Source of the DNA: an uncultured Desulfocapsa sp.
GTDB taxonomy: Bacteria; Desulfobacterota; Desulfobulbia; Desulfobulbales; Desulfocapsaceae
Length of the DNA stretch: 42,816 bases
Assembly: GCA_947311435.1 (NCBI GenBank)
Contig: CAMZKT010000011.1
Span: 1-42,816, forward strand
Reading direction: 5' to 3'
Below, in pieces: positions 3,514-19,689 of the stretch. Position 1 is the first letter of the stretch, and each line of letters begins with the position of its first letter. The translations under genes were made by a program, and so were the position numbers. The notes beneath the pieces were generated by a model. It had not been told where the DNA came from and ran no database searches. It saw only the letters and a list, made by a program, of their open reading frames with translations.

Positions 3514-4947
3514 CTATTTGCTTGGAAGAGGGAGGCTGATAGTGCAGATGTTGATTCCATCCTGACCATGGGAAAGCTCAAGGGAGCCTGCAAAGGATTT
3601 GAGGAAGGATCTGGAAAGCTGTGTTCTCTGGTGTGGGGGCAGGCAATTTTCTGCATTTTTTACTGTACAGGTTGTTGGTTCGCCATTGTCCTGAATGCTT
3701 ATTAACAGCATTTTCTGTGATTCATCATGATTGTTGATGGTCACTGTGGCAGTGATAACTTTGATGCCTGATTTGGAATGCCCGAGTTTACTGTTCAGTG
3801 CAATTCTTGCGTTCTGTAATACGGAAAGAGTAACGAGTTGTAAATCACCGACGTGATCATGCAGCATACGTTCAGGTTCGGTGAGGTTTATATTGAGTGT
3901 TATGTTTTCCTTTTTGAAAATTCCACTGAGCAAATGGCTGATTTCTTTGAAAAAGGTATCCAGGGATAGTGATCTGCCCGTCCCTGTTTTACTTGCAGCA
4001 CTAAAATTTGCAAGTAGTGTAAGAAGAGAGGCCATTCTTTTTTCTTCTGTAAAGAGTTTTTGCAGAAGCTGTCTAAAGTCTTCGTCGAGCTGCATATCCG
4101 AACTGAGATCAAGTATTGCCTGGGAATAGTTTATTGTGCCATTGGAAAGGTTACGGAGCTCATGGCTCAGCTCACCAAACAGGTGCCCCACTGAACTGTA
4201 GCGGTAGAGGCATGACATGGCGTTGTCGTCAGGGGTGATGTTGGAGGTGTTCTCCTCCTTGCTGTTCTGCCCTCTGGCAAGGTTCTCGATACTTTTGTGG
4301 AGTGAAAATAAACTTATGTTATCCTTTTCATCGGGGAATTGCATTTTGCAATACTGTAGTACGGGCGAGCTTATATACTTATTTATCAAAAACATCATGA
4401 TGCTTACCAGGGCAATACCAATGAACAGGAGACCAAGTAGTGCCTGCTGAAGGCTTAAAAGTAGCTTTTGTGTATATCTGCTGATAAGTTGCTGAAAACT
4501 GCTTAATTTATCCTGGATGATTCGCAACTGCTCTGAGAGTCTGGCGATTTCTTTTTGAGAGTCTCTGGGGCTGTCGTTTTGAAATGTTCTCAATGAGACC
4601 GTAATGTTCATTAAATCAAGTTGACTGATTAATGAAAATTTATACTCTTCCGGGATAAGAATATCATCCAGAATGGCCAGGAGCCTGGTATTTAACTCTT
4701 GAATCTCACGTATTATTGCCCTGCTGTGGAGATTTTTTTTATTAATTAGACTGGTGCTTATGTGCTCTTTTATGCCGGTGAACTGAAAAAGAAGCTGCTG
4801 GCTTGAATCGACAAGTTTTTCACAATGTCGATAGAGAAGAAACTGTCTTCCCGCAAAGATGAGAACAAGAAGGAGCAGGCAACAGGTGCCGATGCTAAAG
4901 AGAGAAACAATATGTTTTAAGGAAATCCTGGAAAAAACAGTTCTCAT
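3514..4947 (-). CDS. membrane sensor histidine kinase-like protein, degenerate ATPase domain
   Basis: A 477-residue protein with two transmembrane segments (about 12-32 and 165-190) bracketing a helical, probably periplasmic sensor region. A phosphoacceptor-type helix GELSHELRN (H262) follows. The N box is present (QNARIAL, N379), but the G1 box reads IQDNGEPTT, lacking the second glycine, and no clear G2 glycine-rich lid is visible, so ATP binding may be weak or absent. The start has a good ribosome-binding site (GGGAG, 6 bases upstream). It is 98 bases downstream of the HybB-like gene on the same strand and may be the last gene of that operon. No response regulator gene adjoins it. It may be a pseudokinase or a divergent kinase that senses envelope or redox state. 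Confidence 0.75.
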   Translation of the reverse strand: MRTVFSRISLKHIVSLFSIGTCCLLLLVLIFAGRQFLLYRHCEKLVDSSQQLLFQFTGIKEHISTSLINKKNLHSRAIIREIQELNTRLLAILDDILIPEEYKFSLISQLDLMNITVSLRTFQNDSPRDSQKEIARLSEQLRIIQDKLSSFQQLISRYTQKLLLSLQQALLGLLFIGIALVSIMMFLINKYISSPVLQYCKMQFPDEKDNISLFSLHKSIENLARGQNSKEENTSNITPDDNAMSCLYRYSSVGHLFGELSHELRNLSNGTINYSQAILDLSSDMQLDEDFRQLLQKLFTEEKRMASLLTLLANFSAASKTGTGRSLSLDTFFKEISHLLSGIFKKENITLNINLTEPERMLHDHVGDLQLVTLSVLQNARIALNSKLGHSKSGIKVITATVTINNHDESQKMLLISIQDNGEPTTCTVKNAENCLPPHQRTQLSRSFLKSFAGSLELSHGQDGINICTISLPLPSK

Positions 4948-5045: not shown

Positions 5046-6299
5046 CTATTTACCATCCTGCCATCCGTAGACAATGGGAAGGCGATAAACGATAAAACGG
5101 TATGTCATAAAATATATGGAATAAAGGGTAATGGTAATCCATACCTCTTTCCAGTGTGGAATTTCCTGATACATCTGCCAGTTGAAACAGATCAGTGATG
5201 TGTTGATACGGTTCCAGATGATGCCAAGTGCCGTGATGAAAGCTGCAATTCGTATAAGTTTAAGCCAGTTGTTTCGGATGCCGACTGCAAACATACACAT
5301 GGGGAGCACCACTCCGACACCAAGCTCAAGCATGTAATAGCTTCCCCAACCCGTGAGGAGGTACGACCATTCCTGGTCATGAGCCACAGCTACTATTTTA
5401 ATGATGAGATAGGTTATCATTGCGAATGAGGCACCTTTTGCCATCCCAACCGTTACGTAGTCCAGATTGTTCTTGAAGGTGTCGTCGCAACGCCAGCCCA
5501 TAAAATTCCTGATGAGTGTTGAAGCAATGATTACCATGGAAAGCCCGGCGAAAATGGATGAACAGAAAAAATGAATCCATTGAAAGTTTGTTGATAACCA
5601 AAGTGGATGAACCTTTGCCGGGGCATAGGTGAATAGGGCACCCAGTGCACCCTGATGCAGGGTTGAAAGTATGATCCCTGCAACGGTGAGTCCAAGAACA
5701 AATTTTCGTATGATACGTTTCCCTTTAAGCCAGCCACACCATTCAAAGAATGCGGGGAGTACCTCGGCGATCTGCACCGAGAGGTAGGTGGCAACATGCC
5801 AGGCAACCAGAAAGAGCACGGACGCTGGCCCAAGGGATACTACCATGGGGTAGGGTAATCGCCACCACATACCAAGATCCACTTCCAGAAAGAGTACAGC
5901 GAAAAAATACCCAAGCAGGCCATTAAGCAGTGCCAGACGTTCTATTGATTTAAAATCCTTTCTCCCGAAGAGTTCAACTGTGGTTCCCAGGAGAAATCCG
6001 GAAGCTGACAGGGGAACCATGCCAAAAAGACCGAAGCCTAGAAACAGTCCCCATGGATAATCATTGGAGGCATGTGTAACCCAGCCGAGACCAAATATAT
6101 AACGTCCTAGCAGGAGCGGGATACCAATGCTGCATATTATGATCATCAACCAGTTTACGGGATTTCTAAAAAACTGTTTCCAATAGTCCTGTACAGACAG
6201 TCCAAGGAGAAGTTTTTCTTTTATTGTCCATTGGGTGCCATCTTCTTTGTGATGATTGCTGATTGGTATGTCGGGTCGTTCGTTAGTGAATAGCTTCAT
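5046..6299 (-). CDS. NrfD/PsrC-family (HybB/HmcC-like) quinone-interacting membrane subunit
   Basis: A 417-residue polytopic membrane protein with about ten hydrophobic segments. It resembles the HybB/HmcC branch of the NrfD superfamily: NPVNWLMIIICSIGIPLLLGRYIFGLG in outline near residues 47-75, then a DYPWGLFLGFGLFG segment and WHVATYL. These subunits hold no cofactor but bind menaquinone/menaquinol and exchange electrons with an attached Fe-S protein. The start ATG overlaps the stop of the Fe-S gene upstream (ATGA, 6296-6299), indicating translational coupling. Together with the two genes upstream it forms a cytochrome c / Fe-S / membrane module that would link the quinone pool to periplasmic electron carriers. 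The direction of electron flow cannot be read from sequence. Confidence 0.88.
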   Translation of the reverse strand: MKLFTNERPDIPISNHHKEDGTQWTIKEKLLLGLSVQDYWKQFFRNPVNWLMIIICSIGIPLLLGRYIFGLGWVTHASNDYPWGLFLGFGLFGMVPLSASGFLLGTTVELFGRKDFKSIERLALLNGLLGYFFAVLFLEVDLGMWWRLPYPMVVSLGPASVLFLVAWHVATYLSVQIAEVLPAFFEWCGWLKGKRIIRKFVLGLTVAGIILSTLHQGALGALFTYAPAKVHPLWLSTNFQWIHFFCSSIFAGLSMVIIASTLIRNFMGWRCDDTFKNNLDYVTVGMAKGASFAMITYLIIKIVAVAHDQEWSYLLTGWGSYYMLELGVGVVLPMCMFAVGIRNNWLKLIRIAAFITALGIIWNRINTSLICFNWQMYQEIPHWKEVWITITLYSIYFMTYRFIVYRLPIVYGWQDGK

Positions 6300-7249
6300 G
6301 CCTGTCCCTCCTTCTCCTTTCTCTTTTCTTCCATTTCCATTTCCATTACTTTGTCTTTTAGTGTTGCGAGTAGATGAAATCCTGTGAAAAGGGCAGGCCA
6401 GATGGTGAGAACCATGGGGACTATGGCCAGAAAATCTTTTACAGAGTTCAAGATGGGCTCTTTGGGAAGTGTTGTATCCATTCCAACTTTGTCAAAATCA
6501 ACACTGGAAATATACATCCAGGAAGTACCTCCAACCTCATGCTCCCCATAAATGTGATCTACATATTTCCCTGGGTTTTGTCGAATTCGTTGTCGTCCCA
6601 TTGAGATACAGTCACTTCGTTTACCGAAGCTAAGAGCTTCCTGCGGGCAGACTTCAACACAGGCCGGTGCTTTCCCAAGCTTTAATCGAGTGTCGTAACA
6701 AAAAATACACTTCATAATCCGCGGGCTGAATGCACTGGAATACTTAAAAGTAGGGACATAGAAGGGGCAGGCTATCATACAGGTTCGACAACCGACGCAG
6801 ACATCGGCGTTATAGATAACAGCACCTTCGGGAGTCTTTGTGTAGGCATTCACAAAGCACGAAGTGAGACATGCCGGTTCGTTGCAATGGTTACATTGGA
6901 ATTTTTTGAAAATGGGGTGGTCAAAATCGGGCATATCAAAACGATTAACCACGGTATAGGCAGTTTCGTCGGTACGTCTTTTTTGACCGTGATGGAGTTC
7001 ATCAAATACTGAAAAATCATTAAATGGTTTTTCAGGTTCGGGCAGCCCTTGTTCTTTGTTACATGCTGCCTCACAGGATCTGCACCCTACACATCTGGTA
7101 AGGTCAACTAAAACACCCATTCCGTCGGGGTAGCCTTCAAAGTTTCCCGATGCTTTGCTGTCTGTGTTTTTTATTACTGTTGCTGCGGCTGTAGCTGCAA
7201 GACCGCTCTTCAGGAATCGTCTACGGCTTAATTTCTCCATGAATTTCAT
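6296..7249 (-). CDS. periplasmic four-cluster 4Fe-4S protein (HybA/HmcB-like), Tat substrate
   Basis: A 317-residue protein beginning with a twin-arginine signal (SRRRFLKSG, residues 8-16). Cysteine groups for four [4Fe-4S] clusters are at C53/56/59/63, C119/122/127/131, C151/154/157/161 and C181/184/197/201. A C-terminal hydrophobic helix (about 268-295) followed by a highly charged tail should anchor it in the membrane, as in HybA and HmcB. It would carry electrons between the five-heme cytochrome (gene upstream) and the NrfD-family subunit (gene downstream, overlapping by 4 bases). A good ribosome-binding site (GAGAGGA) precedes the start. No molybdoenzyme or hydrogenase subunit is encoded nearby. 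Confidence 0.9.
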   Translation of the reverse strand: MKFMEKLSRRRFLKSGLAATAAATVIKNTDSKASGNFEGYPDGMGVLVDLTRCVGCRSCEAACNKEQGLPEPEKPFNDFSVFDELHHGQKRRTDETAYTVVNRFDMPDFDHPIFKKFQCNHCNEPACLTSCFVNAYTKTPEGAVIYNADVCVGCRTCMIACPFYVPTFKYSSAFSPRIMKCIFCYDTRLKLGKAPACVEVCPQEALSFGKRSDCISMGRQRIRQNPGKYVDHIYGEHEVGGTSWMYISSVDFDKVGMDTTLPKEPILNSVKDFLAIVPMVLTIWPALFTGFHLLATLKDKVMEMEMEEKRKEKEGQA

Positions 7250-7347
7250 GTTTTTCCTCTCTTCAAACGTGAAAAATCGGGTTGTGCACCAGAACCTAAA
7301 GATGGGGTACTGGTTGAATAGTTACCGTTCCATCTTGTTTTTTGGCT

Positions 7348-7875
7348 TCAGTGCTCTTTTCCCGATGCGGTTTTTGTTTCCGGAGTAAAAGCACCTGTCC
7401 GGTATAGTTTTTCTCCGGCCTCTGTCAAAGCGTGACAATCCACACAGCCAGTTGGCCCGGATGTAGTAACATGGCAGGAAACACAATTAAGATGGTATGC
7501 ACCTTTAAGGCCGGGTTTGTCCAGATGATACAGTTCAGGATCCTCCAGTTTGCTGATATATTCTTGATTGAAGCGATCGGCCACATGACATTTACTACAA
7601 CTCACCACGGTTTTGGCATCATGATGGGTATGACATCTGGCACAATTAGGATCTGCCACAATTTCACCCGTGGTATGGTGGTGACATTCTTCACAACTGG
7701 CATAATCCACATGCATAGCATGGTCGAATGTGACGGGGCCATAGAACTTGCTCATGACATCAATGTTGATTGTTTCTGGCGCATCAATGGCAAGGGCTGG
7801 GGCTGTTAATGACAGAAACAGAATGGAGCCGACACATAGTAGTGTTGTTCCCGGTTTCCTTGTTCGGGGTCGCAT
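7348..7875 (-). CDS. periplasmic multiheme c-type cytochrome, five CXXCH sites
   Basis: A 175-residue protein with an N-terminal signal peptide ending near ALA. Five heme-binding motifs appear in order: CEECH, CARCH, CSKCH, CVSCH and CVDCH. Extra histidines (HHH after the first motif, HTHH after the second, FDHAMH before the first) can supply distal ligands, as in class III (c3/c7) cytochromes. The AAAGGAGG ribosome-binding site lies 6 bases before the ATG. It is the first gene of the cytochrome / Fe-S / NrfD set and starts 63 bases after the ftsH stop, so read-through from ftsH is possible. Its likely role is periplasmic electron exchange with the Fe-S protein; external partners are unknown. 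Confidence 0.9.
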   Translation of the reverse strand: MRPRTRKPGTTLLCVGSILFLSLTAPALAIDAPETINIDVMSKFYGPVTFDHAMHVDYASCEECHHHTTGEIVADPNCARCHTHHDAKTVVSCSKCHVADRFNQEYISKLEDPELYHLDKPGLKGAYHLNCVSCHVTTSGPTGCVDCHALTEAGEKLYRTGAFTPETKTASGKEH

Positions 7876-7938
7876 TGTTTTCCTCCTTTGGGACGGTTGA
7901 ATGATCAGGTTGGCTTAAATGATTAAAATTTATCTGTT

Positions 7939-9759
7939 TTATATTGGGCACTCATTTCCTTTCTTAAGTGTCTCTTCAATGTTTTTTTCGTTAATGTAGC
8001 AGTGGTGGACTATATCAAACTCTTCTCCATCAACGGTTTCATTCACCAGCAGAGCCTCTGCCAGCTTATGCAAAAATTTATTGTTTTCCCTCAGCAGTGT
8101 TATTGTTTCGCTGTGGCAGCGATCAATTATACTTCTGATCTCGTTATCAATGCGTTCTGCCGTCTTTTCGCTATAGGGCTTCATGGTGCTGCCGTTACCA
8201 AGAAATCCACCTTGGTCGTGCATATATGCAATCGGGCCAATCATGTTGCTCATACCGAATTCACAAACCAGACGTCTGGCAATTTCAGTGGCTCCAAGAA
8301 TGTCATTACTTGCACCGGTTGTTTGATGATTGAAAACGATCTCTTCAGCAGCACGTCCACCCATCAATATTTTTATTCTGTTGATGAGGTATTCTCGGGA
8401 GTAGGTGTATCTGTCGTCTAACGGCATTTGCTGTGTAAGCCCCAGAGCCTGGCCACGAGGGATGATGGAAATTTTATGGACAGGATCGGTTTCCGGAAGG
8501 AGTTTTGCGGTAATGGCATGACCAGCCTCATGATAGGCGGTTAAGCGCCTGTCTTTTTCATCAATGACAACATTTTTACGTTCAAGACCCAGACTGATTT
8601 TGTCTTTTGCTTCCTCAAAATCAGAAAACTCAACGGCTTTTTTGTTTTTACGGGCTGCCATGAGGGCTGCCTCGTTGACAAGGTTTGCGATTTCAGCACC
8701 ACTGAAACCCGGAATGGATCGTGCGACTTCCGAAAGACTTGTACCCTTCGCCAATACAATCTTTTTTGTATGAACATTCAGGATTTTTAGGCGACCTTTA
8801 GCATCCGGGAGAGAGATTGTAAGTTGTCGGTCGAAGCGACCAGGTCTTAGTAGTGCTGGGTCAAGAATGTCTGGTCGATTTGTCGCAGCAATGATGATGA
8901 CGGCCTGATCCGAATCGAAACCGTCCATTTCAACCAGAAGTGCATTCAGTGTTTGTTCTCTCTCGTCATTGGAACCACTTGCGTTTCCACCGCTTCTTTT
9001 TCCGCCTATGGCATCAATTTCATCGATAAATACGATACATGGAGCATTCTTTTTTGTTTCTGTGAATAGTTCACGTACTCGTGAAGCACCAACTCCCACA
9101 AACATTTCCACAAAATCAGATCCCCCCATGGAATAAAAAGGAACGGATGCTTCACCTGCTATGGCTTTTGCGATCAGAGTTTTTCCTGTTCCCGGGGGGC
9201 CTTGCAGTAGAACACCCTTGGGGATATATCCACCAAGACTTGAAAGTTTGTCAGGATTTTTTAAGGAATCTACTATTTCAAGAAGCTCCGTACGTGCTTC
9301 ACTGATTCCTGCAACATCTTCAAAGGTAATCCCCGTATCAGTCTTAGGTTGAAAAGTTTTTATTTTGTTACTGGCAAAACTTGATTGTCCGCCTTTTTGC
9401 ATTTTGGAAAAAATCAGATACCCACCGAGAATAAGAAGGACAGGAAGCATTGACTTGAAAAAACCTATAAGGTTTTCGCTGTCTTTCTCGGCAGTTATGC
9501 TAATTGAAAGATCTTCCATTATAGGAAGGAGCGCAGGTATGTCGGGGATATAAGATATGAAATCACGTTTAAGGGTATCCTTCCCGGTGACCGTTCCCCC
9601 CTTAAGATGTACCTGGGTTATTTTCCTCTCTTTTAAAAGTGTCATGAATTTTGTGTATGAAATTTCATCGGGTGTGGTTTCACGGAGATATACATTGTAT
9701 GAAACAACCCCAAGAAAGGTGAGAAGAAGGATTAATAAACCGGTTTGTATCTGGGACAT
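7939..9759 (-). CDS. ftsH: ATP-dependent zinc metalloprotease FtsH
   Basis: A 606-residue inner-membrane AAA protease. The architecture is two N-terminal membrane helices (about 5-24 and 100-118) around a small periplasmic domain, an AAA domain with Walker A GPPGTGKT (187-194), pore loop [11 protein letters not shown], Walker B FIDEID (244-249) and second region of homology ([20 protein letters not shown]), then the M41 protease domain with the zinc site HEAGH (410-414). It degrades misassembled membrane proteins and selected soluble regulators. The ATG is 3 bases after the stop of the upstream transposase-derived gene, and its ribosome-binding site (AAAGGAG) lies inside that gene's last codons, so the two are very probably co-transcribed. 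It leads into the cytochrome gene 63 bases downstream. Confidence 0.97.
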
Positions 9760-9762
9760 TTT

Positions 9763-10653
9763 TCACTCCTTTGCGTCCTGCGATGTTATATTTTTATAGG
9801 AGAGTGTTTTTCTATTAAGAACTCCCGAGAGGAGGAGGTTGAACTTTGCTGCCTGGTCCGGCAACATTGTACTGTTTCTGTGAAAACAGAATTCATCAAG
9901 ATAGAGTTGCAGGTGTTTTGAGGCAACACCCCCGTGGTGAACTTCGTTGATCCATTTCTCAAAACGATTTGTAATCTTTTGGGTTCTGTTCATGTCTGAA
10001 CCCGAAATAATAGTGTATCTGTTTTTATCAATGCTATGAAAAGGTTCCTCTTCAGGGACAAGCAGTGAAGAACCTGTCTTGATACTTTTTGTCAGAAATG
10101 TTTTGAGCGTTTCGCAATTTACAGATGAAACAACAGCTATTTTAATACGACCAGTGAGACCCGTCGGGCTGATGATTTCAGTTGAAGTAAGCAGAGCTGT
10201 ACTGGCAATATTACCACCTGTTGAAGAAATGGATGTGGAAGCGACTTCCACCATACGGGAGCACTTTTTTTTGTCTGCCATTGCCATTGCTAATCGTAAC
10301 TTTTGGAGCCACGTCCACGCTGTTTGATAACTGGATAGTTTTAAAACCCTTTGCAGATCTCTGGCACTTTTCCCTTCCTGTGATGAACTAAGCCACCATA
10401 TGCATGTGAGCCATTGCGAAAGAGGTTTTTTGGTGCCGTGCATAATTGTATTTGTGGTAATTGAAGTGGGGTGCCCACAATTACTGCAAGTCATGTTTTT
10501 AGCAGGAGCAAGTTTTTTGTTTAGCCGTTCGCAGTAAGGGCAGGTAAAACCGTTGGGCCATCGTTTGGAAAACAGGTATTCAATGCTGTTCTGTTCCTCC
10601 TGGAAAATTGTATTAAACTCATAGTTTTTTTTAGGAGAAGAAATATGAGTCAT
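9763..10653 (-). CDS. IS1595-type transposase-derived protein lacking DDE residues (probably domesticated)
   Basis: A 296-residue protein with an N-terminal zinc ribbon (CPYC at 38-41, CSNC at 56-59), followed by the TNTIMHGTKKPLSQW segment typical of IS1595 transposases, and a C-terminal ISXO2-like end (ASKHLQLYLDEFCFHRN near 245-260). Between them the fold can be followed, but the catalytic positions are gone. The usual VEVDETYIGG reads VEVASTSIS (135-143), the second aspartate region reads LLVPEEEPF, and the usual IESFW glutamate region reads ITNRFEKW. The frame is intact over its full length and ends 3 bases before ftsH, with no terminal repeats seen around it. This points to an exapted DNA-binding or regulatory protein rather than an active transposase. 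A sigma-54-type promoter precedes it. Its function is unknown. Confidence 0.75.
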   Translation of the reverse strand: MTHISSPKKNYEFNTIFQEEQNSIEYLFSKRWPNGFTCPYCERLNKKLAPAKNMTCSNCGHPTSITTNTIMHGTKKPLSQWLTCIWWLSSSQEGKSARDLQRVLKLSSYQTAWTWLQKLRLAMAMADKKKCSRMVEVASTSISSTGGNIASTALLTSTEIISPTGLTGRIKIAVVSSVNCETLKTFLTKSIKTGSSLLVPEEEPFHSIDKNRYTIISGSDMNRTQKITNRFEKWINEVHHGGVASKHLQLYLDEFCFHRNSTMLPDQAAKFNLLLSGVLNRKTLSYKNITSQDAKE

Positions 10654-10712
10654 GGGGCATACCGTTTCCTGCGAAGTTTTCAGTGTTACCTATCCACTTT
10701 AAATCTAAGCTT

Positions 10713-10728
10713 TGCATATATGGTGCCA
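10713..10728 (-). promoter_or_regulatory. sigma-54 (-24/-12) promoter for the transposase-derived gene/ftsH operon
   Basis: On the minus strand TGGCACCATATATGCA matches the RpoN consensus TGGCACG-N4-TTGCA: the GG and GC are exactly 10 bases apart, and the only differences are one base after TGGCAC and one T to A change before TGCA. Transcription would start about 12 bases further down, leaving a 5' leader of about 50 bases before the ATG at 10653. A sigma-54 activator gene lies immediately upstream, which fits. Confidence 0.65.
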
Positions 10729-10930
10729 TGAGCTAGGTATTCAGGACGAGCAAGTAAGGCACTGTTTTATCGTCGGAAAGCAATTCCTGGATGAGCTGAG
10801 TGTATCCATTGAAAAAATTATGTATGAATGGAGTGTGATGGAGATCTAGTGAATGTAGCGTTATTACGGTATAATATACGTTCTTGGAGGAGGTTGGAAC
10901 AAGACTGGAGTGTGATACAGATATGTATTA

Positions 10931-10964
10931 CTGCCACACTTGTGATCGCACAGAAGTGTGGCAG
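10931..10964. repeat. perfect 11-bp inverted repeat: possible enhancer site or gene-end hairpin
   Basis: CTGCCACACTT (10931-10941) and AAGTGTGGCAG (10954-10964) are exact inverted copies separated by 12 bases. The centre is about 228 bp upstream of the sigma-54 promoter, a usual distance for an NtrC-type upstream activating site. It also lies just behind the activator's stop codon, but no T-tract follows the stem in that direction, which makes a simple terminator less likely. Confidence 0.5.
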
Positions 10965-10980
10965 AAGAGGCGGGGGGGGG

Positions 10981-12795
10981 TCAGAAATCAAGTGCAGAGA
11001 GATCTATTTTAAGTTCTTTTAACTTGCGGTATAGCGTGGAGCGATCGATACCGAGCAGCCTTGCGGCCTTTGCTTTGTTCCCACCACATTTTCTAAGAGC
11101 TGCGATGAGGCGACTTTCCAGGCCGTTATCCTGAAAGGGATATACGAGTGACGAGGGCTGAGGGGGGGAGGTCTCCTGGAATTGCGAAAATTGCGGAGCG
11201 GTTTCAGGCGGCCGGTGCCGGTGTTCTATAATTTCCCTGGGAAGCTCATTGCAGGAAAGAGTTGAACTGTTACAAAGTACACAGGATCGTTCTATGACAT
11301 GCTCAAGCTCCCTGACGTTTCCAGGCCATTGGTAATCCAGAAGAAAAGTCATCGCTTGATCGGAAATGCCAGAGACAGGTTTGTTCATTTGGTTTGCATA
11401 TAGTTGAATGAACATGTTTGTGAGCAAGAGGATGTCTCCTGTCCGCTCTCTTAAAGGTGGCAGGATAATGTCTATGACTCGCAGCCTGAAATAGAGATCT
11501 TCTCTAAATGTACCTTTTTGAACCTTTTCTTTCAGGTTCACATTGGTGGCTGCAACAATTCGAACATCGACCTGTATGGAATTGTCGCGTCCCACGGGAT
11601 AAAATGTTTTTTCCTGGAGAAATCGCAGGAGTCTCAGCTGCATCATGGATGGTATATCACCAATTTCATCAAGAAAAAGTGTCCCTCCATCTGCCTGGAG
11701 AATACGCCCCATACGATCCTGATCTGCCCCGGTGAAGGATCCCTTTTTGTGACCGAAAAGTTCACTTTCCAGGAGGTTTTCAGGAATGGCTGTGCAGTCA
11801 ACCTTCACCAGCGGTCTGTTTTTTCTATGGCTCTCAAGGTGCAAAGCCTCGGTTGCCAATTCTTTTCCTGTCCCGCTTTCTCCGGTAATAAGCACCGTGG
11901 AGTTCACTTTTCCAACATTCTCGATCATTGTGTAAACAGTTTGCATGGCAGGGCTTACACCAATCATGCGGTGGAAAGATCTTCGCTGCTTTACATGACC
12001 CTGTTCAATAATGGCAGTCATATCCCGAATTACAATAACTGCACCATGGAGCCCGCCTCTGCCATCCTCAAGTGGTGAAATGCACATGGAGATAATTTTT
12101 TGTTCTACGAATTCTGTGGTGAACTCTATGCGATGCTCTTTTATTTCTATTCCTGAGCGAAGAACTTTTTCGGCGTCTTTCTTAAAAAAACATGTGGCAT
12201 TGCCACTGCAAACAGTGGCCAGATTCATGCCTTCTCTCACTTTCGGGTTAATGACTCCTAAAAAAGAGACAGCTGCCTGGTTCATTTTTACAATATTCAG
12301 CTTTCCATCAATCGTGATGATACTGTCGGAAACACTGGCAAACAAAGTGTCGAGGTATTTACGATATTGTTCCTTTTCTTCCTGAGCTTTTTGCTTTTCA
12401 AGAGTCAGGCGGTACTGTTGCAGAGCAAGACGGGTGGTTTTCAGAAGTTGCTCTTTTTCAACAGGTTTCTGGATATAATCGAATGCCCCAAGGCGTAGGG
12501 CCTCAGAGGCAGTATCTACTGTGGGGTAGCCAGTCACCATAACCACTGGGCAGGCAAGATTAAGTTCCCGTATGCGTTTAAGAAGATCTATTCCGGTGTT
12601 TCCGCCAAGTACTATGTCACTTATTATGAGATCAAATGACTGGGCATTGATTTGTCCCAGGGCTTCTTCAAAATTGGAAGCCAGTATCACAGGACCATAC
12701 CCCTCACGTTTGAGGAAAATTTGGAAAGTGTTCCGCAGTGATTCTTCATCATCTACAATGAGAATTGGAACATTGACTGTAGGTGTGTTTTCCAT
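10981..12795 (-). CDS. sigma-54-dependent response regulator (REC-PAS-AAA-Fis)
   Basis: A 604-residue NtrC-family activator. The receiver domain has D15-D16, phospho-acceptor D60 and K110. A PAS-like domain (about 150-270) with two cysteines (VCSGNATCFF) follows. The AAA domain carries Walker A GESGTGKE and the sigma-54 contact loop as GSFTGA, and the C-terminal Fis-type helix-turn-helix reads GGNKAKAARLLGIDRSTLYR. The chosen start (METs at 12795) has GGAG 6-7 bases upstream and begins right before the receiver; the open frame extends 39 codons further, but these look non-coding. It is third in an operon with a histidine kinase and a PAS protein, 52 bases after the latter. Likely targets are the adjacent redox operons, especially the one led by the sigma-54 promoter at 10713-10728. 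The stop is followed directly by nine C residues. Confidence 0.92.
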   Translation of the reverse strand: MENTPTVNVPILIVDDEESLRNTFQIFLKREGYGPVILASNFEEALGQINAQSFDLIISDIVLGGNTGIDLLKRIRELNLACPVVMVTGYPTVDTASEALRLGAFDYIQKPVEKEQLLKTTRLALQQYRLTLEKQKAQEEKEQYRKYLDTLFASVSDSIITIDGKLNIVKMNQAAVSFLGVINPKVREGMNLATVCSGNATCFFKKDAEKVLRSGIEIKEHRIEFTTEFVEQKIISMCISPLEDGRGGLHGAVIVIRDMTAIIEQGHVKQRRSFHRMIGVSPAMQTVYTMIENVGKVNSTVLITGESGTGKELATEALHLESHRKNRPLVKVDCTAIPENLLESELFGHKKGSFTGADQDRMGRILQADGGTLFLDEIGDIPSMMQLRLLRFLQEKTFYPVGRDNSIQVDVRIVAATNVNLKEKVQKGTFREDLYFRLRVIDIILPPLRERTGDILLLTNMFIQLYANQMNKPVSGISDQAMTFLLDYQWPGNVRELEHVIERSCVLCNSSTLSCNELPREIIEHRHRPPETAPQFSQFQETSPPQPSSLVYPFQDNGLESRLIAALRKCGGNKAKAARLLGIDRSTLYRKLKELKIDLSALDF

Positions 12796-12847
12796 TGTGT
12801 CTCCAGGGGATAGGGGCGTATAAAAAAATATGTTAATCGATGAGTTC

Positions 12848-13975
12848 TTATGTCGAAAAAGTTGTGAGGTCACGAAAGACAACAACAGCTCCACTCTGAT
12901 GTTTTCCTTCAATTATTGGCGTCGATGTGTACTCTACAGCAAAGGAGCTACCGTCTTTGTTCCAGAAAACATCATCAGATTTAAAATGTACCTGACCATT
13001 TCTGCATGAATTGAGGATGGGGCAGTCTTCTTCTTTGTATTGGTCACCATTGGGGTGACTGTGATGAACCAATTGGTGGTGAGGTTTATCTATTAATTCA
13101 TCCATTTCCCTGCCAAGCATTATGGAGGCAGCTTTATTCATAAAGGTCACGTTGCCGTTGTTGTCAAGCCCAAGGATACCTTCCCCCGTAGAATTGACTA
13201 TAAGATCGAGTTGTTTTTGAATCTTTTTAGCTTTACTGATGTCCTTAAAAACGACAACTGCTCCAATTATATTTTTGCGTTCGTCAAACAGGGGAGTTGA
13301 TGTATATTCCACGGAAAATCTTTTTCCTGATTTTGTCCAGAATATATCGTTGGTTTCATGGTGGACTTGACCGTCGTTATAGGCCATATATATGGGGCAT
13401 TCTTCGATGGGGAATTCATCCCCGTTGACACGTGTGTGATGTACAAGGTCATGGTGGGAGGTTCCAATAAGTTCTTTTTCTGTCCATCCAAGAATCTCTG
13501 TGGCTTTGTGGTTTGAGAAGGTAACAAAGCCCTTGGTGTCAATTCCAAAAATACCGTCACCGGCTGAGTTGAGAATGGTTTGGAGACGTTTCCTCAGTTT
13601 AAGCCCTTCGGTCTCTGCTTGGATACGTTCGGCGATTTCCCGATTCAGTGAGCCATTGATGACGGCCATTTCAAAGGTCTTTTTTTCAACAGCATCATCA
13701 AGTGATGATTGAACATCGTCCAACGATTGAGCACAGGTTGTATACTTTTTCTGCAAGCTATTGTATCTTTCCTGGAATTTGCTGCCTTCACTAGTTGAGT
13801 AGAAAACTGTGATCCCATAAAGTACAAGAAGCACAATAAAAGAGAGAATATCGTAGGGAATGAAGAGACTGCCCGAATTATTTGTTCTGATTTTATAATC
13901 TAAAAAGTAGAGCAGCATTGCAACGATGGAAAACAGTAAGGAATACAGTAGTGTGGATCTTGAGTTATTATTCAT
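12848..13975 (-). CDS. membrane protein with two tandem PAS domains, no kinase domain
   Basis: A 375-residue protein with two transmembrane helices near the N-terminus (about 6-25 and 39-60), a coiled-coil stretch, and two similar PAS domains. Each contains a histidine-rich motif (GTSHHDLVHHTRVNGDEFP in the first, PHHQLVHHSHPNGDQY in the second) followed by EECPIY or EDCPIL and SVEYTSTP or AVEYTSTP. The repeated HH, Cys and Glu residues suggest a bound ligand or metal. There is no histidine kinase, GGDEF or other output domain. The ATG at 13975 overlaps the kinase stop (ATGAATAA) with GGGAG upstream; a longer frame exists but is less likely. Being between a kinase and its response regulator, it probably tunes that pathway as a sensory partner. 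Confidence 0.85.
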   Translation of the reverse strand: MNNNSRSTLLYSLLFSIVAMLLYFLDYKIRTNNSGSLFIPYDILSFIVLLVLYGITVFYSTSEGSKFQERYNSLQKKYTTCAQSLDDVQSSLDDAVEKKTFEMAVINGSLNREIAERIQAETEGLKLRKRLQTILNSAGDGIFGIDTKGFVTFSNHKATEILGWTEKELIGTSHHDLVHHTRVNGDEFPIEECPIYMAYNDGQVHHETNDIFWTKSGKRFSVEYTSTPLFDERKNIIGAVVVFKDISKAKKIQKQLDLIVNSTGEGILGLDNNGNVTFMNKAASIMLGREMDELIDKPHHQLVHHSHPNGDQYKEEDCPILNSCRNGQVHFKSDDVFWNKDGSSFAVEYTSTPIIEGKHQSGAVVVFRDLTTFST

Positions 13976-15989
13976 TTGGTGCTCCCTGGATATCGGATAT
14001 TGGAAGGTCAACTGTGAGGGTTGTTGAAACGCCGAACTCACTGTTTATTGTGAGTGATCCTTTGTTGTCCTGCATGAGGCCATGACTGATACTCAGCCCA
14101 AGCCCTGTTCCTTCACCTTTGGGTTTGCTTGAGTAAAACGGGTCGAATACCCTGTCTATTAATTCCTGCTCTATTCCTGTTCCGTGGTCTGTAAGGGTTA
14201 TACGAACAACTGTTTCTTGTAAGTGCGTTACAGTGTATCCCCTGATAATAAGTTTCTTGTCTGGATTAGCACCTGGGTATCGGTCGTTCAGGGCATATCG
14301 GGCATTGGAAAGAATATTGAGTAAAACCTGTTGTATTTGATGACTGTTACAGAAAACCAGCGGAATGTCAGGGGAAAGGTGCATCTCCAGTAAGACCATA
14401 TCTTTTTTCAATCGGTGGTTAACAAGATCAAGGCAGTTAGTAATTATGGTTTCTATGGAGACAGCCTCGGCAGATTCCTCGTGTCTTCGCGAAAAATCAA
14501 GAAGATTTGAAACGATGGCGGCTATTCGTTTTCCTTCTTTTTTTATATTCTTTAATAAGTTCGGGGTCTCTTCGTCCTCTGGATAATCCATTATAATCTG
14601 CGCATAATTAATTATCCCGTTAATTGGATTGTTGATCTCATGGGCAACCCCCGCTGCCAGTTCACCAACGGAGGCGAGCTGTGCAGAGCGGATCGCTTCT
14701 GCCTTTGTCAGCTCTTCTTCAGTGAGATTCCTCGCTACAAGAAGAGCTGCATCCTGGCCATTACCATTTTGATGGAGGGGACTGATGGTAAGGAGATAGT
14801 TCCCATGCAGGCCACGAAGTTTGGTCTCCAGTATTCTACTTTGTTTGTTGGCGATCAATTTCTCAAGCGGACAGGGGATGTTTTCTGTTGCACCTAAGTG
14901 GAGTATGTCACATATTTTGTGGCCGATGACTTCAGAACGTTTTTTTTTGGCGATTGTGAAGGTCGCTGAGTTGGCATCCAGGATAGTTGAATCTACGGAG
15001 ACGATAAGAGCGGGATCCTGGATGGCAGAGAAAATGTTTTTCCACTGTGAAAGAGCCTGCTTGAGGTCATTGTCATCCTGGAGTTTTCTGGTTATGTCGA
15101 TTCCGAGGAGTACAAGGCCAAGTTTACCTTTTTCAATGTTATGACGAAAAGAGGCGTGCCAGCTAATATGTCGTTTTTGTTTATTCCGGGTGAGTAAACA
15201 GGATTCAAAATTCATTTGATCCTTTTTTCCCTTGAGAACATTACTCAGCAGTTGTTGATTCTCTATTCTGTGTTCATCGGCCATGAGCACATCAACCCAA
15301 TATTTCTTGATAACTTCACATTCTTTGTATCCTGTAACTTCCTCAGCTTTTTGATTAAAGGAAAGGATGTGCCCACAGGGGGAAATCGAGATTAGCATTG
15401 CCTGCATTGTGTCAACAATTTCTTTGTTGAAGTCACGTTCGATCTGTATTCGCATGGTTAAGTCATGGGAATACAGGGCGAGTGAGATATCTGCAATAAT
15501 TGTTTGAAGAAAAGAAATTTCTATTTCTGTAAAGGAATTTTTCTTTTGTGAGTAAATGTTGATGACAGCAAATTCTTTCCCTTTATATTTTATGGGCCAT
15601 GAGGAGTATGATCCAGACCCAGTTTTTTTTGAAAATTCTCTAATGACCCGATGGTTCGTGGATGAGAAACTGTCATGATTTACGACATATTTCCCTGAAA
15701 GAAGAGCGCTCGCTGCAGGGTTTTTTGTGGTCATTTTTGTGAAGAACGGCGGTATAAGGCGCAGGCTGTTCTGTTCAGAGATGATCGTAGAGCCAAGTAC
15801 AACCAAAGGTTTTATAGATTTCCCATCCTTATCACATCTTCCTGCCCAGATGAGACAATACTCATGGTTTTGCATAAGTATTTGGCAGCATCTTTCAAGG
15901 AGGAGGTCGGTACTTGTTTTGTCACTGAACTTTGAGGTAGAAAGTTCGTTAATGGCCAGGAGTATTTTGTTCCTTTTGAAAGTATCCAT
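13968..15989 (-). CDS. soluble sensor histidine kinase (GAF-PAS-PAS-HisKA-HATPase)
   Basis: A 673-residue kinase without transmembrane segments, so it senses a cytoplasmic signal. In order it has an N-terminal GAF-like domain (about 20-185), two PAS domains (about 195-310 and 318-440), a dimerisation/phosphoacceptor helix GVAHEINNPINGIINYAQ (H450), and a complete HATPase domain (QVLLNILSNARYAL, DHGTGIEQELIDRVFDPF, GEGTGLGLSISHG). The HEINNP form is typical of NtrB-like kinases that pair with sigma-54 activators, and one is encoded two genes downstream. It overlaps the PAS-protein gene by 8 bases. It is the first gene of this signalling operon. The PAS1 region has CGHILSFN, and no heme or flavin signature is certain. 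Confidence 0.93.
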   Translation of the reverse strand: MDTFKRNKILLAINELSTSKFSDKTSTDLLLERCCQILMQNHEYCLIWAGRCDKDGKSIKPLVVLGSTIISEQNSLRLIPPFFTKMTTKNPAASALLSGKYVVNHDSFSSTNHRVIREFSKKTGSGSYSSWPIKYKGKEFAVINIYSQKKNSFTEIEISFLQTIIADISLALYSHDLTMRIQIERDFNKEIVDTMQAMLISISPCGHILSFNQKAEEVTGYKECEVIKKYWVDVLMADEHRIENQQLLSNVLKGKKDQMNFESCLLTRNKQKRHISWHASFRHNIEKGKLGLVLLGIDITRKLQDDNDLKQALSQWKNIFSAIQDPALIVSVDSTILDANSATFTIAKKKRSEVIGHKICDILHLGATENIPCPLEKLIANKQSRILETKLRGLHGNYLLTISPLHQNGNGQDAALLVARNLTEEELTKAEAIRSAQLASVGELAAGVAHEINNPINGIINYAQIIMDYPEDEETPNLLKNIKKEGKRIAAIVSNLLDFSRRHEESAEAVSIETIITNCLDLVNHRLKKDMVLLEMHLSPDIPLVFCNSHQIQQVLLNILSNARYALNDRYPGANPDKKLIIRGYTVTHLQETVVRITLTDHGTGIEQELIDRVFDPFYSSKPKGEGTGLGLSISHGLMQDNKGSLTINSEFGVSTTLTVDLPISDIQGAPNE

Positions 15990-16291: not shown

Positions 16292-17485
16292 TTAGTGATG
16301 TTCCTTTTGAGTAAAAACTTTACCGAATACTCGTTCACCGACAAGGAATCCAAAGCAAACAAGTCCTATGGAGCCACCTATCACTGCCCACTCAATGAGT
16401 GACGGGAAGTAATCTAAATAGGTGGGAGCGTCGTCCCATCCAAGACTGACGGGAACAAGGAGACCTGCAGATACCAGATGGTACCGTGCGAAAAACTGAC
16501 CAACAAGAATAAAGAATCCTGCAATGGCCATCACGGCAACGTTTTTTAAACGAGAGATGACGATAAGCACCATTGGTACTAATAAGCCAATACAAATTTC
16601 AGCAATCCAGAATGTCTTGGAAAGGGGGCCGCTTATTAGTGATTCTGCCCCTACGCGACCAAGCTCCTCACCCCCAACAAAAAACATAATTAAACGCCAA
16701 AAGGTAGCAACAGAGTAGAGAACAAGTACCAGGGTCATAGCTTTACCGGCACTTTTTATGCCAGAAACCACGGGGGCACTCATCTCAGTGCCGCGGATTT
16801 TATATGCGACATAGTTGATAAGAATTGTAGCAGCAGCACCTGAAAGGAAAGCTGCGGTAAGAAAATAAATGGGGAGCTGTCCGCCAAACCAGTATGGTCG
16901 GCTAGGGAGAGTCGCAAACACGCCACCCAGACAACTGTTAGCAAGTACTTCAGCAATGGCACCAAAAGTTCCAAGAAAGAGCGCTAGTTTGGAAAAACCT
17001 TTTATGATCCCGAAGAATTCCAGTATAAGGCAGCCGACCGCAGTTCCATAAAGTGTTCCCATCCACCATATGTTGGAAGTTGGATTTGGCGACAGAATGT
17101 TATAAATGATCATTCTATGAGGGCTGGCGATCTCAACTCCGATCGTTGCAAATGCGCCCATTATACATACGATGGACATCCACACCATTCTGTTGCTGAA
17201 TATTGCCATTTTGGTACCACCAAAAAGATGGGATATGGCAGCGTAAATACAGAGACCCGTAGAAGTAATTGCCCAAAATGCATAAATGGCAATTAGTAAT
17301 CCCCATGGAACTTCACGGGTGTTATTGTAAATGGTTTCGTGGCCTACTATAAAACCGGATGCTCCAAGTCCAAGTCCGACCGCTGTGATAAATAAAAATA
17401 AGACCATGGCCCGGTTAATTCCGGGTGTTGCCAGACTGCTATCCTCAGTATGAGACAGAATATTTGTAAGTGAATTGTTTGCCAT
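16292..17485 (-). CDS. NrfD/PsrC-family membrane subunit (second redox module)
   Basis: A 397-residue polytopic membrane protein of the NrfD superfamily with about ten hydrophobic segments. It is clearly different from the HybB-like protein at 5046-6299: this one begins with a GASGFIVGHETIYNNTREVPWGL region, in outline, and carries FGGQLPIYFLTAAFLSGAA, typical of the polysulfide/tetrathionate reductase-like branch. It should exchange electrons between the quinone pool and the Fe-S protein encoded two genes upstream. The start at 17485 (MANNSL) has AGGAG 6-7 bases upstream; five more codons are open upstream but lack such a site. It is last in the Fe-S / cytochrome / NrfD operon and is followed by a terminator. 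Confidence 0.9.
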   Translation of the reverse strand: MANNSLTNILSHTEDSSLATPGINRAMVLFLFITAVGLGLGASGFIVGHETIYNNTREVPWGLLIAIYAFWAITSTGLCIYAAISHLFGGTKMAIFSNRMVWMSIVCIMGAFATIGVEIASPHRMIIYNILSPNPTSNIWWMGTLYGTAVGCLILEFFGIIKGFSKLALFLGTFGAIAEVLANSCLGGVFATLPSRPYWFGGQLPIYFLTAAFLSGAAATILINYVAYKIRGTEMSAPVVSGIKSAGKAMTLVLVLYSVATFWRLIMFFVGGEELGRVGAESLISGPLSKTFWIAEICIGLLVPMVLIVISRLKNVAVMAIAGFFILVGQFFARYHLVSAGLLVPVSLGWDDAPTYLDYFPSLIEWAVIGGSIGLVCFGFLVGERVFGKVFTQKEHH

Positions 17486-17591
17486 TTTTTTCTCCTGCAC
17501 TGATCTTCATCAGGCACAATGGTTTATGAATCAAAAGAATAGTATATATTTATTATTATTGAATTGATGAGTGAATATCGTTCGTCTGAGA

Positions 17592-18269
17592 TCAGTGACC
17601 ACCAGTTGTGTCAGTGGTTGATTTTGTGTGAGATTTTTCTCCCATCATGCGTTCGTATCCAGTTCTGCCTATGTGACAGGTGTTACAGCGTGTATTTGAA
17701 GCAAACGCTGTCTCTCCATCGTGGCAATTACCACAGTATTTCCCTTCGTAAAGGGATTTCATAGTGTAGTCCGGAGATTTTTCGGCTGTTCCAACTTTCA
17801 TGGAAAAGAGCTCATCATGGCAGGAGGAACATTCTAAATCGAATTCTGTGGAATGGAGCTGGTGGGAGAAGATCACGGCTTTTACAGGTCTGGTCATTAC
17901 AACCGGATCAGCAGGAATTATATGACAGGCCTGACAATTAGTAGTGGTGGAAAAAGCGTCGTCCCCATTGTGACAACTGCCACAAAACATTCCCTTGTCA
18001 AGGGATGCCATGGTAAATTTCCCTGTTTTTGGAGCAACACCTCGTTGCATGGCAAACAATTCACCGTGGCAGGAATCACAACTCAGTCCCAACTCGTCTG
18101 TGTGAGTACGGTGTTCAAATCTGACTTCAACAGGTTTCTTCCAAACGATGGCTCTTTTGGGGCCAAATGCTTTGACGTCATAATCGTCTGATGCTACTGA
18201 ATTCACAGCTGGCAGGACGCTGCCGGCAAAGAAAGTGATGCCGACAGCGAATAGTATATTATTTTTCAT
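17592..18269 (-). CDS. periplasmic hexaheme cytochrome made of two triheme repeats
   Basis: A 225-residue protein with a signal peptide (starting MKNNILFAVGITFFAG, cleaved near AVNSVAS). There are six heme motifs: CDSCH, CGSCH, CQACH, CSSCH, CGNCH and CNTCH. The mature part is an evident tandem duplication: each half has F(E/S)H..H, C.SCH.ELF(A/S)M, T(M)..L..G.(F/Y)CG.CH(N/D)G and NC.(A/T)CH in the same order, i.e. two c7-like triheme units. The start at 18269 has AAGGAG 8-9 bases upstream; the longer open frame upstream has no such site and would spoil the signal peptide. It sits between the Fe-S and NrfD genes, so it is probably the periplasmic electron entry or exit of that complex. Confidence 0.92.
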   Translation of the reverse strand: MKNNILFAVGITFFAGSVLPAVNSVASDDYDVKAFGPKRAIVWKKPVEVRFEHRTHTDELGLSCDSCHGELFAMQRGVAPKTGKFTMASLDKGMFCGSCHNGDDAFSTTTNCQACHIIPADPVVMTRPVKAVIFSHQLHSTEFDLECSSCHDELFSMKVGTAEKSPDYTMKSLYEGKYCGNCHDGETAFASNTRCNTCHIGRTGYERMMGEKSHTKSTTDTTGGH

Positions 18270-18354
18270 TTCTGTATTCTCCTTGAATCCGGTTGGTATA
18301 AACTTAGCATCTTTTGGGCTGGACAATGGGCACTTGAAAGTTATCCCATGAGAA

Positions 18355-19119
18355 TTATGCATTCATGTAGAATACATTTGGCAATGCTCCGCATTCCGGA
18401 CGGAGAACCCATATCTTGTTGTCAGGTTTATGCAGCAATTTATAGATTTTGGTGTTTGTGTCTTTGATATCACCAAAGACTCGGACATCAGCGGGGCAGA
18501 CAGCTGCACAGGCGGTTTCTTTTTCACCTTCTTTAAGGCGAGTGTCGATACAGAAATTACACTTGTCAATGGCGTGTTGGGAGTGGTTGTAATATCTGGC
18601 ATTGTATGGACATGCTGCCATACAGGTTTTACACCCGATACATTTCTTCTTATCCATAACTACAATCCCGGTCTCGGGGTCTTTGTACGTGGCAACGGTG
18701 GGGCAGACACGAACACAGGGAGGCCGATTGCAATGGTTACAGAGAATGGGTCTGAATTCTTGTATCTCCTCTCCTTGTATGGTGGTTAGTCGTTCCTGGA
18801 TTTTCGTTCTCCAAGCATCGTGGCCAACAGGAACATTGTTAGTCTTAACACACGCCTCCATACATTTTTCACAGCCAATGCAGTGATTTTGGATCATTAC
18901 CATACCATAATGAATAGGGTATGGGTATTGTCCTTCCACAGGGATCACAGAGTCGACGTTACCGCCACTGGCTGTAGAGATTGAAGTTAGTGAAAGCACT
19001 GTTCCGCCGAGAAAGACTCCTGTGACTGTAAGGCCCATTTTCATGAACTTCCGACGTTCAGCTGAAGGCAACGATTCTACACCCTCATTCGTTTCCTTTT
19101 CCAGTTGTTTAATATCCAT
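18355..19119 (-). CDS. periplasmic 4Fe-4S ferredoxin-type subunit (NrfC/TtrB-like), Tat substrate
   Basis: A 254-residue protein with a twin-arginine signal (ERRKFMKMG, residues 21-29). Cysteine groups for four [4Fe-4S] clusters are at C80/83/86/90, C127/130/135/139, C160/163/166/170 and C187/190/204/208. Unlike the Fe-S protein of the other module it has no C-terminal membrane helix. It resembles the Fe-S subunits of polysulfide, tetrathionate or nitrite reductases. The start at 19119 has AGGAGGAG 5-9 bases upstream; the eight open codons before it are discarded. It is first in a three-gene operon with the hexaheme cytochrome and NrfD gene. No molybdopterin catalytic subunit is adjacent, so the complex may act as a stand-alone quinone/cytochrome oxidoreductase. 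Confidence 0.92.
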   Translation of the reverse strand: MDIKQLEKETNEGVESLPSAERRKFMKMGLTVTGVFLGGTVLSLTSISTASGGNVDSVIPVEGQYPYPIHYGMVMIQNHCIGCEKCMEACVKTNNVPVGHDAWRTKIQERLTTIQGEEIQEFRPILCNHCNRPPCVRVCPTVATYKDPETGIVVMDKKKCIGCKTCMAACPYNARYYNHSQHAIDKCNFCIDTRLKEGEKETACAAVCPADVRVFGDIKDTNTKIYKLLHKPDNKIWVLRPECGALPNVFYMNA

Positions 19120-19689
19120 TCTACTCCTCCTGATATTTGACACACACTTTGTTTAACAAGCCAATAGGTTTTGATGTGCCAAGTCAGCAATTATAAATGA
19201 GGCCTCATTCAGTACAGAAATCAGCTATAATAAAAAAAACACTTGATTAGTTGTTTGTTCGTATAAGAAAAAACGCATATCGACTGGGATTTGATATCTT
19301 CACGCAGTATTCCAATTTTCAATTAAAGTACATTCTTTGTTAGTAGTGTCAAGGTTTATTTATAACAGAGTACTATGGGGAAGAAAGGTACAACTTAGAG
19401 TGTGAATAGTTTTCAGTGATTCACATCAGTACTATGAGTTACAAGGGGATCAGACCCTTGACTCTTAATGAAAGAATAGAGTATGTATCATATGGTCAAA
19501 AACGTCATTCACCACTGGTGGCCAATAAAAATACTTCATATGCGATGTAATCCTTACCTGTTTTATACCGGCAACAAGAGATGCTGTAATAAGCAGAATA
19601 AGAGAGCAACGGAGTAGGTGAAGATTTGATTCGGTGTCACCATTATTTATTAGTCCTGAATTCAGGAGTAGTCGTTAAGGAGTTCCTCC
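19120..19689. other. divergent intergenic region, no gene seen
   Basis: About 570 bp separating the minus-strand redox operon from the plus-strand pentapeptide gene; it should hold both promoters. A TTGGCAC box occurs on the minus strand (19174-19180) but its partner GC is absent at the right distance, so a sigma-54 call is not justified. On the plus strand TTGACT (near 19458) is followed by a poor -10. A perfect 14-bp palindrome lies at 19654-19667 (listed separately). Confidence 0.4.
19654..19667. repeat. 14-bp palindrome just upstream of the pentapeptide gene
   Basis: TCCTGAATTCAGGA is a perfect palindrome 22 bases before the ATG of the pentapeptide-repeat gene. It could be an operator or a small hairpin in the leader close to the ribosome-binding site (AAGGAG). 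Function not determinable from sequence. Confidence 0.45.

Follow-up and report, generated by a model that had tools for sequence, protein, structure and literature searches.

A catalytically dead IS1595-type transposase conserved beside ftsH in Desulfocapsaceae: a candidate local regulator with a transposon-end-like site at its promoter

Introduction

Regulators derived from transposases are known from eukaryotes and include FHY3/FAR1, CENP-B and SETMAR. In bacteria, TldR proteins are of mobile-element origin and descend from TnpB. They are RNA-guided transcription factors (PMC13418256). Further transcription factors co-opted from mobile elements are treated in PMC8987985, whose examples include Xre and ribbon-helix-helix proteins and whose main text mentions neither DDE nor IS1595. 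The IS1595 family was described by Siguier et al. (2009), as cited in PMC8101967.

Here, we describe an IS1595-type transposase gene (TNP; 9763..10653) from an uncultured Desulfocapsa sp. that appears to have left mobile life. The window referred to below is the whole stretch of DNA analysed, 42,816 nucleotides in length, and all features given by coordinates lie on its minus strand. The original prediction knew of no described role for a gene of this kind, and a literature search of partial coverage found no description of one.

Results

TNP was identified from its open reading frame, Pfam and NCBIfam models, orthologues and a tree. The intact, full-length frame of 296 amino acids matches DDE_Tnp_IS1595 (3.7e-9; 37.2 bits, cut-off 27) and Zn_ribbon_IS1595 (1.2e-6) in Pfam and the IS1595 transposase model in NCBIfam (80.9 bits, cut-off 75). 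Membership of the IS1595 sequence family, judged by curated models above cut-off and a four-cysteine zinc ribbon, is met on both counts, which bears out the predicted frame and zinc ribbon. The zinc ribbon (residues 20-61; 10471..10596; Pfam match and alignment) has cysteines 38, 41, 56 and 59 invariant among 21 aligned orthologues. It is followed by a segment of predicted helices (residues 75-130; 10264..10431; supported by the alignment), inferred to be HTH-like, and by an RNase H-like domain (residues 131-217; 10003..10263; model and alignment) in which the fold is predicted to be kept and the catalytic residues are lost. The mean identity of main-group TNP proteins to active rows is highest in the helical segment (0.47), with 0.35 in the zinc ribbon and 0.23 in the RNase H-like domain.

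In the alignment, catalytic positions D1 (VEVDET.. to VEVASTS..) and D2 (TDGW to VPEE) are both gone. It had been claimed that all three DDE positions are replaced. This stands for D1 and D2, and the window protein also differs from its active relatives at the third position, but the residue expected there was Glu (IESFW), whereas 32 of the 33 nearest active relatives have His (VHRVASLLKRW). We read the alignment as placing the third catalytic position at this His. The structure of TNP is predicted with confidence (pLDDT 89.6) to be RNase H-like. Its nearest PDB folds are retroviral integrases, with the ISCth4 transposase lower and the SETMAR transposase domain a weak match; all TM scores are low, and the fold comparison gave nothing beyond general RNase H/integrase matches. 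In the region 10620-10675, the ATG corresponding to the start codon of the orthologues is out of frame, and the frame in the window starts at a later ATG. The window was also scanned for Rfam families (at gathering scores) and tRNAs, and none were found.

The stop codon of TNP (9763-9765) is separated by three bases from the ATG (9759) of an ftsH paralogue (7939..9759), and AAGGAG is found within the last codons of TNP, in agreement with the prediction that the gene ends three bases before ftsH and holds its ribosome-binding site. The genome of the window (G000) has a single TNP match and encodes a second FtsH elsewhere that is 52% identical. Some TNP match was found in 33 of 56 genomes searched, own genome included, with ftsH directly downstream in 21 of 30 loci. 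A profile search matched 65 of 93 Desulfocapsaceae genomes, a number that takes in active relatives; counted from the listed positions, the domesticated form is present in 42 of the 93. In at least 40 of these 42 carriers TNP adjoins one FtsH paralogue, as anticipated for a gene with conserved synteny across species. In one carrier (G104), ftsH is cut by the contig end, and the beginning of ftsH is visible in what is apparently the same contig, named locus L048; another (G068) has TNP and no FtsH in the cluster. All 29 named-genome loci L036-L064, which include Desulfocapsa, Candidatus Desulfatifera and Desulfobulbus rhabdoformis, have ftsH downstream of TNP (in two frames in L057), and the TNP locus L065 stops at its own contig end. 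No ftsH was seen beside the transposase in 43 loci mostly from other phyla (L066-L108), 24 of which match the strict canonical D1 pattern; one of them, L096, is a fragment belonging to the MAG that also contains L063. The genomes are mostly MAGs, and the homologues are not independent. As separate observations, stop codons interrupt the FtsH match next to TNP in two genomes (G063 C256 and G077 C97; error or decay), TNP directly overlaps the cytochrome gene in G068 (L184), and TNP in G200 (L196) is flanked by the kinase and regulator only, with no FtsH in the cluster and no site of the kind described below.

In a tree of 99 rows, 55 domesticated rows fall on one side and 44 ordinary transposases on the other (SH-aLRT 99). 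This was a quick tree, and the program warned of long branches. Not one of 54 domesticated rows keeps both D1 and D2, and the catalytic-residue criterion for an IS1595 insertion sequence is not met by TNP; active relatives keep D1 in 33/33, D2 in 31/33 and His in 32/33. In the second score group, D1 is retained in 11 of 21 rows. The ratio dN/dS (omega) is 0.110 for TNP (14 genomes) and 0.056 for the FtsH paralogue (13 genomes), and the three nearest TNP pairs give omega 0.084-0.155 at dS 0.69-0.80. A terminal inverted repeat pair, which would have spoken against domestication, was not found around the window copy (its score is 14, and the best shuffles reach 22-23). Among 53 domesticated rows (2 skipped), one has a repeat score higher than each of 40 shuffles, versus 29 among 46 others (9 skipped), and a still mobile element with terminal repeats is rejected on these counts. 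A chromosomal position that is fixed, with one copy in G000, likewise fails to meet the mobile-element trait of several copies or variable positions. A pseudogene or recent insertion is rejected on account of the full-length frames, the single clade and the omega of 0.110. TNP is thus a real domesticated gene, with orthologues at one locus, purifying selection and lost catalytic residues. The original prediction of exaptation, and the consistent DDE loss and dN/dS well below 1 by which it was to be checked, are upheld by orthology, synteny and these values.

TNP is a member of a gene cluster that reads, in order, histidine kinase (13968..15989), PAS-domain protein (12848..14041), sigma-54-dependent response regulator (10981..12912 as listed, the true start probably being further in), TNP, FtsH, multihaem cytochrome c (7348..7875), HmcB-like iron-sulfur protein (6296..7249), HmcC-like membrane protein (5046..6299) and a conserved last gene (3514..4947), which has no Pfam match at 1e-5 and is kinase-like by eye. 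We use the name Hmc-like because the HmcB and HmcC models both score below cut-off (401.7 bits, cut-off 420, and 356.1 bits, cut-off 550). Single members are missing or unrecognised at some loci. A second set of NrfD, cytochrome c and iron-sulfur genes lies at 16292-19143, upstream of the kinase gene, and genes resembling this set accompany the cluster in G009 (L185) and, in part, in L036.

Several other families have the same cluster but lack TNP in it, and the cluster FtsH was found without TNP at 13 loci. In an FtsH tree of 57 rows and one outgroup, with the root placed on the second FtsH, 44 TNP-bearing and five TNP-less rows form one clade (99), and eight TNP-less rows fall outside. The fewest TNP changes on this tree are four, most simply read as a single gain with three losses; the starred branches force only three, which leaves room for two losses. 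Most simply, the sequences suggest that TNP joined an older cluster once, and that two or three losses followed.

The upstream alignment of 12 Desulfocapsa-type loci reveals a sigma-54-type promoter before TNP, TGGCACCATATATGC (GG-N10-GC; 10714..10728), in 12 of 12, and a conserved block. A conserved 12-bp site, AAGTGGATAGGT (10688..10699), begins 14 nt after the promoter GC; in the absence of binding data, it is a proposed operator only. Among 37 main-clade rows, promoter and site occur at this fixed distance with the site exact in 30, with one mismatch in three (33/37 with at most one mismatch), with two in two, and with none found in two, namely L063, which is cut by the contig, and L196, a long-branch row in which the cluster is broken. 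Whichever promoter candidate matched best was counted, a choice biased towards the site. Within the site, 11 of 12 positions carry 1.58-2.0 bits of information and the variable tenth carries 0.94, whereas none of the 14 positions that follow exceeds 0.51 bits. Promoter and site are separated by a spacer of constant length, whose sequence varies but is under some constraint (0.32-2.0 bits, with an invariant first base). Of the 18 rows of the second clade, ten have GATAGG variants, four have other sequence, and no promoter was found in four; in G068, a site variant persists beside TNP.

Where TNP is absent, so is the site. The core was not found within 330 bp of FtsH in 13/13 TNP-less clusters, nor, in the other 8/8 fetched TNP-less loci, which have no recognised FtsH, within 600 bp of the cytochrome gene (21/21 in total). 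Fisher's test of 33/37 main-clade rows against 0/13 TNP-less clusters gives p 7e-9, a value uncorrected for descent that overstates the independence of related sequences. The site is also missing in each of the TNP-loss rows inside the TNP-bearing FtsH clade (L181, L182 and L231-L233), where the promoter is convincing by eye and other sequence stands at +14. A clear promoter was not found in several of the remaining TNP-less rows. In L181, a site-like AAAGGGATAGGTA lies about 130 bases before FtsH and not at promoter spacing; it could be a relic.

Exact matches to promoter plus site number 20 in the 93 genomes, 19 at TNP and one elsewhere in a genome without TNP (G110). With one mismatch allowed there are 39, 21 at TNP and 18 elsewhere, against five in a backward control. 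The 18 are split evenly between TNP carriers and non-carriers (nine each) and are therefore read as background. A dispersed regulon is rejected on this basis (18 matches away from TNP, one of them exact), and control thus looks local; the search was confined to the promoter-plus-site pattern, so that a site without a sigma-54 promoter was outside its scope. A sigma-70 promoter scan of 7200-11100 gave fewer candidates than shuffled sequence. Behind the stop codon of the regulator lie dyads of the type TGCCACA-N4-TGTGGCA (10932..10963), proposed as an enhancer for the sigma-54 regulator. They form a conserved block in 12 Desulfocapsa-type loci, and dyad matches occur in 3 of 13 TNP-less clusters; in the window, matches to the dyad pattern were not above shuffles.

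The conserved site resembles the ends of active IS1595 relatives. The consensus of 42 active terminal-repeat ends is GGGTATCCACTT, and TATCCACTT is exact in 16 and present with at most one mismatch in 27 of the 42. Its reverse complement, AAGTGGATA, opens the conserved block before TNP, and the first nine bases of the 12-bp site AAGTGGATARGT equal the reverse-complemented consensus core. By our own estimate, assuming equal base use and allowing either strand, a 12-bp block would match a 12-bp consensus over nine bases by chance in approximately 1 of 8,000 cases. Conservation does not extend to the inner bases of the repeat. The site is oriented like a right end, whereas a left end would be expected before a transposase gene, so that mere retention of the original left repeat at its old position does not explain it. 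A direct left-end relic is accordingly not supported; a junction of tandem elements, a solo end and convergence are all possible.

Discussion

We consider it likely that TNP, a catalytically dead transposase of the IS1595 type, has been retained as a DNA-binding regulator that acts locally, by negative autoregulation, although binding and expression data are lacking. The neighbouring kinase and sigma-54 regulator would fire the promoter before TNP, and this promoter would read TNP-ftsH-cytochrome c-hmcB-hmcC, a co-transcription that is itself inferred. The zinc ribbon and helical segment of TNP are then inferred to bind the site just past the expected transcription start. By sigma-54 numbering, the site would span about +4 to +15. 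A protein bound there would hinder initiation, and repression rather than activation is therefore our first guess. Bound TNP would damp its own promoter, and the purpose, again by inference, could be a limit on the levels of FtsH and the Hmc-like complex. TNP would thus be an autoregulator, probably a repressor, acting through a relic or look-alike of an old transposon end. The guess of a DNA-binding regulator in the original prediction thereby gains sequence support, in a conserved promoter site that matches the active-repeat core and is absent without TNP.

Other readings have been weighed against local regulation. The original prediction also offered an FtsH partner or substrate as a possible role, and TNP may act with the co-encoded FtsH at the protein level, as adaptor or substrate. 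The tight coupling to ftsH in at least 40 of 42 family carriers would suit such a role, but TNP and a site variant persist in G068, whose cluster has no FtsH, 13 loci have the cluster FtsH without TNP, and the promoter site is left unexplained; the proposal is weakened, and we think it unlikely. Position alone would also allow control of translation, with TNP or another factor reading the conserved word as RNA, as the site lies behind the expected transcription start (again by sigma-54 numbering) in the presumed 5´ leader. An RNA-level regulator is quite improbable, since the matched transposon end is double-stranded and the DNA-binding segment has been kept, both of which favour DNA.

The likeness to active ends raises the possibility that TNP recognises the same core as active IS1595 elements, in which case the dead protein might occupy transposon ends in trans and protect the genome. 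No other match is present in the genome of the window, however, and TNP resides in a metabolic cluster with the site at its own promoter; we give the inhibitor very little credence. An ordinary insertion sequence decaying beside ftsH by chance would account for the lost catalytic residues and for the window copy being the longest end branch within its genus, but is already contradicted by the omega of 0.110, full-length frames in many species, one clade and fixed synteny, and can hardly be entertained.

We lean, if only slightly, towards a history in which a bacterial DDE-type transposase turned into a transcription factor and a relic of its own transposon end came to serve as the operator: the terminal bases would have been dropped, the recognition core fixed at one sigma-54 promoter spacing, and protein and site inherited, changed and lost together. 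If true, this would show one way in which an insertion sequence can supply a bacterium with both a regulator and the site that it binds. The case can be put to the test: many species carry the gene, one host is in culture (Desulfobulbus rhabdoformis DSM 8777; L062), the predicted operator is 12 bp long, and loci that have lost the gene serve as natural controls. A further warning is that the annotation "IS1595 family transposase" can conceal a conserved operon gene, here a dead transposase retained as a single-copy gene in a conserved energy-metabolism cluster of sediment bacteria.

Compared with known systems, TNP shares with IS1595 family transposases the zinc ribbon and the DDE_Tnp_IS1595 domain, and the family models are met; it differs in having neither the catalytic residues nor a repeat pair, and in being a cluster member with one copy at a fixed place in the genome of the window. 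With FHY3/FAR1, CENP-B and SETMAR it has in common a dead or altered transposase used for DNA binding, whereas these are eukaryotic, belong to other superfamilies and have no two-component or sigma-54 operon. The factors covered in PMC8987985 are similar in being mobile-element DNA-binding proteins that regulate host genes. TldR (PMC13418256) is likewise a mobile-element protein turned bacterial gene regulator; it is not a DDE transposase and is guided by RNA, whereas the target of TNP resembles a transposon end.
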